From: Deltaproteobacteria bacterium | Lineage (GTDB): Bacteria > Myxococcota_A > UBA9160 > SMWR01 | NCBI GenBank assembly: GCA_002729515.1 | Contig: PBYF01000138.1 | Coordinates: 1 to 64,000 of the forward strand | Direction of reading: 5' to 3' | DNA: 64,000 bases | Shown here: positions 12,221 to 40,713 of the stretch, piece after piece | Position numbering within the stretch: the stretch's first letter is position 1 | Layout of the letters: every line of letters starts with the position of its first letter | Position numbers and translations under genes: made by a program | The notes under the pieces: model-generated | The model's input: only the letters and a program-made list of their open reading frames with translations | What the model was told of the DNA's origin: nothing | Database searches by the model: none

Positions 12221-13459
12221 TTGGCGGACTTCGAGATCATCGAAACCAAGGCAGGCCTCGACGTCGTCGTCGAGGACCTGCTGTCGGCCAAGATCGTCGC
12301 AATCGACACCGAAGCCGACAGCTTCTACCACTATTTCGACAAGACCTGCCTGGTGCAGATCGCTACACGCCGGAATATCTACCTGATCGACCCCTTGGCA
12401 CTGGGTGGTCCGGCGGAGCTCGCCCCGCTGGGGCCCGTGTTCGCGTCCCCCGAGATCACGAAGATCTTCCACGCCGCCGAGTACGACCTCTTCGTGTTGA
12501 CGCGCGATTGCCGCTTCAGTTTCGCAAATCTCTTCGACACCATGGTGAGCGCGCAGCTGCTCGGTTACCCGTCGGTGGGGCTCGCCGGCCTCGCCGAGCG
12601 GCATTTCGGCGTGAACCTCCCGAAGGACGAGCAGCGCTCGGACTGGTCGCGGCGTCCGCTGACCCAGCGACAGCTCAACTACGCCGCAGCCGACGTCGTC
12701 TACCTGATCGAGCTGACCGAGAAGCTCACTCGCGAGCTGCGCCAGGCGAAACGCCTGCGCTGGGCACGCGAGGAATTCGAATCGCTGTGCACTCGATCCT
12801 GGCCCGAACGTGAGTTCGACGAGTTCGGGTACCTGCGCATCAAAGGGGCAAAGCGTCTCGACCCGAAGGGGCTCTCGATCCTGCGCGAACTCTACTTCGT
12901 GCGAGACGCCCGGGCGCGCGAGTTGGACCGGCCGCCCTTCAAAGTGCTGGGCAACCGGACCTTGCTCGACATCGCCGATCGAAAGCCGACAAAACTGAGC
13001 GAGGTGGCCGAGATCAAGGGCATCACCGACCTCCTCATCCGGCGCATGGGCCGCGACATCATGACCGCGATCCGCAAGGGCCGTAAACAGGACCATGGCC
13101 CGCTCCCCAAGCTCGGTGGTGGCCGGCGCCGCATGGACCGGCAGGTCGAGCGCCGGATGGCGGCGCTCAAAACCTGGCGCACCGGCCGCGCCGAAGACCT
13201 GAGGATGGACCCAGGCGTGCTCGCTCCGAACTCGGTGCTCGAGGCAATCGCGTGGCGGGCGCCGGCAACGGCGGCCGACCTCGACGACCTGCCCGAACTC
13301 AAGGGCTGGTTCCGACGGGAGTTCGGCTCGGAGGTGACCCGAGTGACCCTGGAGGACCTGACCGGACAAGAGACCACGAAGAAGCAGCGGCACGGCCAGC
13401 GGGCCCGCTCCGGCCGGCGGCGCAGCGGCCCCCGCCGGGCCGACGAGACGGAATCCTGA
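12221..13459 (+). CDS. rnd: Ribonuclease D
   Basis: About 412 aa. The DEDDy exonuclease motifs are clear: DTE (residues 29-31) in AIDTEADSF, HAAEYDLFVL (about 84-93) and YAAADVVYL. An HRDC domain follows (LREL, DIADRKPTKLSEVAEIKGIT) and a second helical domain ends the protein. It trims 3' ends of tRNA and other structured RNAs. The open frame runs far upstream through the antisense of the FIST gene, so the start is uncertain. I chose the TTG at 12221, 8 nt after AAAGG, which matches the N-terminal length of E. coli RNase D. GTG at 12173 is the alternative. Confidence 0.9.
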   Translation: MADFEIIETKAGLDVVVEDLLSAKIVAIDTEADSFYHYFDKTCLVQIATRRNIYLIDPLALGGPAELAPLGPVFASPEITKIFHAAEYDLFVLTRDCRFSFANLFDTMVSAQLLGYPSVGLAGLAERHFGVNLPKDEQRSDWSRRPLTQRQLNYAAADVVYLIELTEKLTRELRQAKRLRWAREEFESLCTRSWPEREFDEFGYLRIKGAKRLDPKGLSILRELYFVRDARARELDRPPFKVLGNRTLLDIADRKPTKLSEVAEIKGITDLLIRRMGRDIMTAIRKGRKQDHGPLPKLGGGRRRMDRQVERRMAALKTWRTGRAEDLRMDPGVLAPNSVLEAIAWRAPATAADLDDLPELKGWFRREFGSEVTRVTLEDLTGQETTKKQRHGQRARSGRRRSGPRRADETES

Positions 13460-13649
13460 AAAACGAGAAGCCCCCGGGCCGGACCATCCGGCCGGGGGCT
13501 CTAGCGACTGTCCTCCCGGCGCGAAGCCGAGCGGGCGAGTCCCGCCTTGGGGGAAAGCGCCTGGTAGCGCTCGACCCTCCTCCGAGAGGTGTGCCGAACC
13601 GTCCGTGCGCGCCCGCTTACGTCCGATCCGGCCACAACAGAACGCTGCA
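13455..13649 (-). ncRNA. Candidate sigma-54-driven small transcript between rnd and the lipoprotein gene
   Basis: The 340-bp gap after rnd has no plus-strand gene. On the minus strand, a sigma-54-type promoter (13661-13675) would start RNA near 13649, and the hairpin at 13469-13500 followed by TTTTT would end it, giving about 195 nt. The interior can pair locally, for example AGCGC with GCGCT at 13556-13572 and GGCGGG with CCCGC at about 13529-13545. A basic 44-codon frame from a GTG at about 13635 down to the stop at 13501 also fits (VAGSDVSGRARTVRHTS), with GC-rich third positions. I cannot tell whether RNA or peptide is the product, and I match no known RNA family. Confidence 0.45.
13469..13500 (-). 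terminator. Strong hairpin, intrinsic terminator when read on the minus strand
   Basis: AGCCCCCGG(G)CCGGA pairs with TCCGGCCGGGGGCT around a short loop. Read on the minus strand, the hairpin is followed by TTCTCGTTTTTCAG, a proper T-tract. On the plus strand there is no T-tract, so for the rnd transcript it is at best a stem-loop end. The orientation supports minus-strand transcription entering from about 13650. Confidence 0.75.
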
Positions 13650-13658
13650 CTATTCCAA

Positions 13659-13676
13659 GAGCAGAAAGCGTGCCAA
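13659..13676 (-). promoter_or_regulatory. Sigma-54 (-24/-12) type promoter
   Basis: Minus-strand TTGGCACGCTTTCTGCTC. The GG at 13674-13673 and the GC at 13662-13661 are separated by the required 10 nt, and TGGCACG is the full -24 consensus. The -12 element is CTGC instead of TTGC. It points away from the lipoprotein gene and towards the terminator at 13469-13500. Confidence 0.55.
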
Positions 13677-13844
13677 GCACAGACCACCTCTCACTCCACG
13701 CAAGGGGTTGATTTTTCAGCTCTTTTCTCAAACGTGTCGAGAGCACACCGGTCCGTGGGTGCCACTAAAATTTGCAGCCGGATGTGCCTCCGGGCAACCG
13801 GCGGCCGTCAGCTGCGCCACAACCCCGCGAGACGGAAACAGTCG

Positions 13845-14975
13845 GTGATCAACGCATCCGAAAGCAGCCCCGCCGCCCTTTGCGGCGGGCTGGCTACCGC
13901 CCTGCTGCGGATCGCGGTGGCCGCTCTAGCCGGCTGTACGGCGCAGCACACGCCCCAGGTGACTCCCCGCATCCACACGGCCCAACCGGTCAGCGGCAGC
14001 GAGGACTACTGCGCCTGGTACGGCGACGCCCGCGACGGGGTGCTCTATTTCGGTCAGGCGGCATTCTGGGCAGCCAAGCGGGCCCACGCCGGTGATCCCC
14101 GCGGCGACCTGGCGGCGTCGGGTCCCCAACTCATCGGCCGCTTCGACTTGCAGCGGGAGCGCATGCTGCCCCCCCTCGACGTCACAGCGCCCGGGGCGCG
14201 CTCCGGGGTCTGGGACGTCCACGCCCACCGGAACGGGCGCGTCTACTACACGACTTTTTTTGAGGAGATGGGCGCAGTCGACCCGGCAACCGGCGACGTG
14301 AGCCGCTTCCGAGGGCTCGGATTGGGCCTGAACGAGATCGCCGCGGGGGAGGGAGACACGCTGCTCGTCACTCGCTACGGCGCCGGGCCACGGGAAGACC
14401 CTCAGCAGGGCTCGCTGCTGGTCATCTCTCCCGAGGGCGTGCTCCTCGAAGAGCATGCACTCACACCGCCCGCCGGTTACACCGCGGCACCGAAGACCCC
14501 CGCCTTGGACACAGCGAGCGCCACGTACTGGTTGACTGCAGACCTCTTGCCCCGGGGCGCCGGCGCGGTTCGAAACGACGCATTCGTACTGAGCCTCGAC
14601 GGAGTTCAACGCCGACGCATCGAAACGCCCGAGATCCAGTTCGTTGCGAGCAACCCGCAGGTGGGGCTACTGCGCGCCGAGCGAAGCGGCTCCGAACTCG
14701 ATCTCGTGCGGCCCGTTGGGAGCGTCGTACTCGACACTGACTTCGCCGCCGCCTTCGACTTCACCCAGGACGTGAAGCCCACACCCGACGGCGGAGCCGT
14801 CGTCACACAGTGGAGTGGCCTCGTCCACCGCGTTGCCGCGGACGGCTCCTCCAGCAGACTGCAGCTTCCGAACCTCCAGCAGGGCGGTCTCTACTACACG
14901 GCAGTGCTGGCCGACGACCGCATCTGCGCCACGTACTGCGCCGGGGTGCGCGTCGTCTGCACTCGGATTCCGTAG
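13845..14975 (+). CDS. Lipoprotein, probable beta-propeller
   Basis: 376 aa from a GTG at 13845 with a weak ACGGA RBS; the open frame extends upstream but has no signal peptide there. The signal ends in the lipobox ALAGC at about residue 29. The mature part has repeated strand-rich segments such as VWDVHAHRNGRVYYTTFFEE, EIAAGEGDTLLVTRYG and DVKPTPDGGAVVTQWSG, which look like propeller blades of the SMP-30/gluconolactonase or NHL kind. No catalytic residues can be assigned. The function is unknown. Confidence 0.65.
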   Translation: MINASESSPAALCGGLATALLRIAVAALAGCTAQHTPQVTPRIHTAQPVSGSEDYCAWYGDARDGVLYFGQAAFWAAKRAHAGDPRGDLAASGPQLIGRFDLQRERMLPPLDVTAPGARSGVWDVHAHRNGRVYYTTFFEEMGAVDPATGDVSRFRGLGLGLNEIAAGEGDTLLVTRYGAGPREDPQQGSLLVISPEGVLLEEHALTPPAGYTAAPKTPALDTASATYWLTADLLPRGAGAVRNDAFVLSLDGVQRRRIETPEIQFVASNPQVGLLRAERSGSELDLVRPVGSVVLDTDFAAAFDFTQDVKPTPDGGAVVTQWSGLVHRVAADGSSSRLQLPNLQQGGLYYTAVLADDRICATYCAGVRVVCTRIP

Positions 14976-40515: not shown

Positions 40516-40577
40516 AAGGAGCCGACGGTAGCCAATTGTCGCCCGCCGCCCCCAGTGGTAGATTCGCATCCGAGTAC

Positions 40578-40661
40578 AGCCACGGGGTGGCCGAGCGCAG
40601 GATCGGCCTGAGATCACACCCGTCGAACCTGATCTCGTTCGGACGAGCGCAGGGATCGGCT
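40578..40661 (+). promoter_or_regulatory. TPP riboswitch (THI element) upstream of thiC
   Basis: The conserved parts occur in order: ACGGGGTGGCC (40582-40592), CTGAGATCACACCC (40608-40621), GAACCTGATC (40625-40634), then GCGCAGGGA (40647-40655). CTCGT and ACGAG (40633-40645) close a stem around TTCGG, and AGCC/GGCT at the ends form P1. It binds thiamin diphosphate and shuts down thiC, whose ATG lies about 52 bp downstream. The control mode (translation or termination) is not decided from this sequence. Confidence 0.92.
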
Positions 40662-40713
40662 TCCAGCACGAGGTCTCACCCGGGCGCTTCGAGAAACAGG
40701 AGTGCCGCACACG

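Follow-up and report, generated by a model that had tools for sequence, protein, structure and literature searches.

The analysed window, a stretch of 64,000 nucleotides of Deltaproteobacteria bacterium DNA, carries a stand-alone RNA gene of ~190 nt on its minus strand (~13649–13459), and the T-run at the end of this gene abuts the rnd stop codon. Comparison of orthologous sequences indicates that the conserved segment is an RNA gene with a conserved fold, and almost certainly a structured RNA driven by sigma-54. What the comparative evidence establishes is the RNA gene, its fold and the layout of its promoter. The gene probably represents a new small-RNA family that is activated from an enhancer and acts in trans, and it would pair with mRNAs.

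Locus and limits of the RNA gene

The RNA gene and its neighbours are placed as follows.

13459–13649, minus strand: RNA gene, ~190 nt, defined by covariance-model orthologues, with the start taken from the -24/-12 box and the end from the terminator
13459–13500, minus strand: intrinsic terminator read in the sequence, strong G+C hairpin AGCCCCCGGCCGGATGGTCCGGCCCGGGGGCT (13500–13469) plus TTTTT (13463–13459)
12260–13459 (start approximate), plus strand: rnd, ribonuclease D, with DNA_pol_A_exo1 and HRDC domains; convergent neighbour of the RNA gene across the order
13845–14975, plus strand: lipoprotein-like gene, divergent from the RNA gene; an open frame with no Pfam match, found in only part of the order

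Beyond the lipoprotein-like gene, Pfam domains identify an aminopeptidase P (M24) and an acetyl-CoA synthetase. In the relatives the RNA copies run towards rnd and away from pepP and acs, and because they share this one position at the rnd locus they are treated as orthologues. The genome that contains the window holds the locus twice (G000:C99 and G000:C116), with 2 mismatches in 3.3 kb; this is most likely assembly redundancy, which is why the covariance model scores two copies there.

The RNA is predicted to start near 13649, counting from the GG at -25/-24. A preliminary description, made from the window sequence alone, had drawn a 195-nt transcript here, and its start at ~13649, its hairpin and its T5 end could all be located. 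Beginning ~11 nt past the -24/-12 box, the 195-nt strand has a folding energy of -108 kcal/mol, compared with -92.2 +/- 4.5 for shuffled sequences (z = -3.5). A script detected a hairpin followed by a T-rich tail in 44 of the 58 orthologues and found no terminator in the other 14.

Instead of a gene of its own, the conserved stretch could be a leader or control region belonging to one of the neighbours, and in the window the enhancer region does extend over the beginning of the lipoprotein-like gene on the divergent side. However, along the RNA strand the terminator comes next, followed by rnd in the opposite orientation, and the lipoprotein-like gene is missing from many orthologous loci, so that we consider this explanation highly improbable.

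At the gathering score Rfam 15 has no match to the RNA, which agrees with the preliminary description in placing it in no known family; matches at a relaxed threshold were at chance level and were discarded. The sole gathering match in the window is a TPP riboswitch at 40573–40673 (plus strand, 59.6 bits). 6S RNA (RF00013) is likewise a single-copy structured RNA of similar length, but it was rejected as an identity since it has no match at the RNA, and two genomes (G024 and G029) carry both a separate 6S gene and the new RNA. Those two 6S genes (L189 in G024, L188 in G029) were the only ones at the gathering score among the 31 genomes searched, and 6S RNA in this order is thus either divergent or often absent.

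Distribution across the order

When relatives were searched at the DNA level, the segment turned up together with its promoter in several genera of the family, and a pattern search of ~85,000 species gave convincing matches only to records whose titles read Deltaproteobacteria, Myxococcales or uncultured bacterium. Of 80 genomes of the order, 58 contain the RNA according to the first covariance model, built from ten sequences, with one true copy in each, beside rnd. A refined second model built from 49 sequences raised this to 63 of 80. By inspection, the promoter and the P2 hairpin described below also occur at the rnd locus of G043, G072, G074, G076 and G078, for a total of 68/80. Orthologues are as little as ~41% identical to the window copy. 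One match (G066b, L119) was judged spurious, as it lies within a gene and has no promoter.

The refined model did not find the RNA in 11 class-mates outside the order, and when it was applied to 284 genomes sampled from the phylum, all matches fell within the order. Within the order, ten genomes from three lineages have the rnd locus and keep rpoN, with no RNA at that locus.

A conserved three-way junction

The RNA is predicted to fold as a three-way junction of the elements P1, P2 and P3, with two conserved loops.

13637–13645, minus strand: P1 closing stem, 5' arm, pairing with 13503–13511; 7/8 pairs changed on both sides
13503–13511, minus strand: P1 closing stem, 3' arm, placed by covariation
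13592–13633, minus strand: P2 hairpin with conserved loop GGGCGCG (13614–13608); 13/14 pairs changed on both sides
13512–13590 (limits approximate), minus strand: P3 arm with conserved CTTTCCCC (13557–13550); covariation in every P3 stem except the innermost, which has two pairs

Standard pairs fill 86% of cells in the 49-sequence alignment, compared with 68% in shuffles. Double-changed cells number 440 against 144 +/- 12 in shuffles, and such changes occur in 38 of the 47 pairs; this alignment is model-fitted and the shuffles ignore relatedness, whereas controls in which the structure is slid by 1–3 columns preserve relatedness, and in these the double-changed cells fall to 67–151. The first MAFFT alignment, which was not fitted to the model, has the same trend (43 vs 21.0 +/- 3.3), and RNAalifold independently arrives at P1 and P2 as well as a large part of P3.

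These substitutions bear on the alternative of a coding locus, whose product would be a small basic peptide of ~44–49 codons. The window copy does contain an open GTG frame, but the orthologues share no reading frame (start position, frame and length all vary) and the substitutions track base pairs. The peptide reading was therefore rejected for want of a conserved frame, and its probability is negligible. The preliminary description had allowed for either a small RNA or a peptide and had proposed a comparison with relatives. In that comparison the promoter and the stem pairs are both strongly conserved across the order, which supports the small-RNA half of the proposal, while the 44-codon frame, though present, is not conserved.

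The P2 loop GGGCGCG occurs in 56 of the 58 orthologues and the P3 motif CUUUCCC (CTTTCCC in DNA) in 47 of them. In the window copy, the usually conserved GGCACC of the P3 loop (13512–13590, minus strand) is altered to GGGACT. Four genomes (G043, G072, G038 and G078) keep the promoter and P2 with P3 reduced or lost, and family f9 (G024 and G031) keeps P3 and has lost the P2 loop. The separate loss of the two loops, together with the ten rnd loci that lack the RNA, suggests that the loops are separable contact modules and that the regulator can be dispensed with.

Promoter and upstream control sites

The region upstream of the RNA has the predicted layout of a classic enhancer/IHF/sigma-54 control region.

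13660–13676, minus strand: sigma-54 -24/-12 box TTGGCACGCTTTCTGCT, GG and GC 10 nt apart; the sole such box in the window
13701–13713, minus strand: IHF-like site AATCAACCCCTTG, matching 9/9 consensus positions in the window
13760–13776, minus strand: putative proximal activator dyad TGCAAATTTTAGTGGCA, a weak copy under the dyad rule
13871–13887, minus strand: putative distal activator dyad CGCCGCAAAGGGCGGCG under the dyad rule, within the start of the lipoprotein-like gene

The pattern TGGCAYR-N5-TGCW occurs once in the 64 kb window, with 0.09 occurrences expected from shuffles, and TTGGCACG-N5-TGCT did not occur in 100 shuffles of the window. The -24 motif is present in 58/58 orthologues and TGC at -12 in 48/58; the ten that lack the latter constitute family f4, in which TTGGCACG is kept and the GC is replaced by other letters. 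RpoN (PF04552) is encoded in the window's own genome and in 74 of the 80 genomes of the order. A sigma-70 reading (TTGGCA-16-AATAGT) is possible in the same stretch and overlaps the -24 box. The sigma-54 promoter of the preliminary description is thus confirmed as a box on the minus strand that is unique in the window and kept in relatives. The extent given there holds for the RNA part of the element and was drawn too small for the whole, with upstream control sites reaching ~13887.

Many orthologues have an IHF-like WATCAANNNNTTR ~40 nt upstream of the -24 box. Dyads of the form TGC[AC]NC-N5-GN[GT]GCA lie at ~-80 to -117 from this box, and distal dyads, often paired 18 bp apart, at ~-174 to -240. 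By fixed-rule counts, with control windows drawn from the same loci and test windows placed after the sites were inspected, IHF-like sites with at least 7/9 matches occur in 41% of orthologues vs 0.7% of control windows, proximal dyads with at least 10/12 in 59% vs 2.5%, and distal dyads with at least 10/12 in 57% vs 3%. A dyad site matrix was fitted on these very sites, so its scores are no test and the fixed-rule counts serve as one.

A search of the window's own genome found no other promoter with the strict enhancer pattern. Across the order this pattern leads back to the RNA and also to genes for small secreted proteins and a few others, and the genes behind a dyad and a sigma-54 box may be co-regulated with the RNA. 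In family f4, genes in this arrangement encode small secreted proteins with an RERWRGKPY-like motif (L180, L181, L182, L184 and L186); the one that was scanned has no Pfam match. Two further genes in this arrangement (L159 and L175) encode small proteins of 67 and 69 amino acids with no Pfam match.

P-II gene promoters of the window's family (L128–L142) are of the sigma-54 type (CGGCACG-N4-TTGCT) and often have two TGC..GCA boxes ~22 bp apart. This is relevant to the idea that the activator is NtrC itself and that the RNA is a nitrogen-starvation small RNA like NrsZ. The RNA's dyads are NtrC-like in form, and the same genomes have these sigma-54-type P-II promoters with TGC..GCA dyads. However, in the 13 P-II promoters compared the boxes are related to but distinct from those of the RNA: they have different inner letters, score low on the RNA's site matrix and are without an IHF-like site. 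Because of these differences the activator may be another NtrC-family protein, and we regard NtrC itself as a possible but rather doubtful candidate.

Proposed mechanism

From the sequence features we infer transcription in the cell, an activator, IHF binding and base pairing of the RNA in trans. An NtrC-family activator would bind the two upstream dyad clusters and, assisted by an IHF-type bend, activate sigma-54 polymerase at the -24/-12 box. The resulting ~190-nt RNA would fold as a three-way junction, end at the intrinsic terminator and pair in trans with mRNAs through its exposed conserved loops. These are GGGCGCG in P2 and, in P3, CUUUCCC(C), which is complementary to purine-rich Shine-Dalgarno-like sequence.

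Action by mRNA pairing is the first choice because small RNAs with C-rich loops offer an analogy, and on this basis we lean towards it with some confidence. In six genomes GGGGAAAG precedes ATG at 73 sites, vs 23 when the pattern is reversed as a control; Shine-Dalgarno sequence of the ordinary kind could account for this excess. Among the 30 loci read in this small search of six genomes, no downstream gene common to the genomes emerged as a shared mRNA target. This outcome weighs against the proposed mechanism, as do the 14 orthologues in which the script found no terminator, the missing GC at -12 in family f4, the weakness of the window's proximal dyad and the ten rnd loci that have no RNA.

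The outcome of the target search would also fit an RNA that is made in the same way and binds a protein instead of mRNA, as a sponge or cofactor like CsrB, CrcZ or 6S. The conservation of fold and loops over the order, beyond the needs of pairing seeds, points in the same direction. On the other hand, no repeated protein-binding motif was seen, and the gene persists in genomes that have lost one loop or the other, which would be odd for a single protein-bound shape. We therefore consider protein binding unlikely, if less so than the peptide and leader explanations, and retain the enhancer-activated, mRNA-pairing small RNA as the preferred reading. In a more ambitious version, the order-wide structured regulatory RNA would have a new architecture, a three-way junction whose two effector loops can each be dispensed with; its activator, of the NtrC family, would govern a regulon of its own, and the RNase D encoded next to the RNA would mature it. 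This version is speculative and would in our estimate probably prove wrong in some part.

Comparison with known systems

For an uncultivated order of Myxococcota-like bacteria, the analysis contributes a candidate new RNA family together with its covariance model and the control region predicted for it. Its order-wide conservation, the natural loss of either loop and the ten RNA-less rnd loci make its function accessible to culture-free comparative and metatranscriptomic tests.

Small RNAs under related control are known from other bacteria. GlmY of enterobacteria is a small RNA under enhancer, IHF and sigma-54 control, the same layout as predicted here, but GlmY acts via the protein RapZ and the new RNA has no Rfam match. 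NrsZ, NfiR and other small RNAs linked to sigma-54 and NtrC are also stand-alone and are switched on through sigma-54 activators, as would be the case for the new RNA; they differ in coming from other phyla, and the new RNA matches no Rfam family.

The nearest published parallel, compared here by its description, is Pxr of Myxococcus xanthus. Pxr has a predicted sigma-54 promoter, an upstream enhancer-binding region, an NtrC-type response regulator and a stem-loop fold; its 108 nt are read as three successive stem-loops, and its maturation requires RNase D (PMC5684412, PMC5568312, PMC10217877). The pxr gene lies beside the regulator gene nla19/pxrR (PMC5568312). The two RNAs are alike in being myxobacterial, in combining a predicted sigma-54 promoter with an upstream enhancer region and an NtrC-type activator, putative for the new RNA, and in having a stem-loop fold; in addition, Pxr needs RNase D and the new RNA adjoins rnd. 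They differ in that Pxr is 108 nt long, has its three stem-loops in series and sits beside nla19/pxrR, whereas the new RNA is ~190 nt long and lies between rnd and pepP/acs. The position beside rnd may be related to Pxr-like processing by RNase D, which we offer only as a lead; this adjacency raises the question of whether RNase D processing of sigma-54 small RNAs, as in Pxr, is older than Myxococcus.
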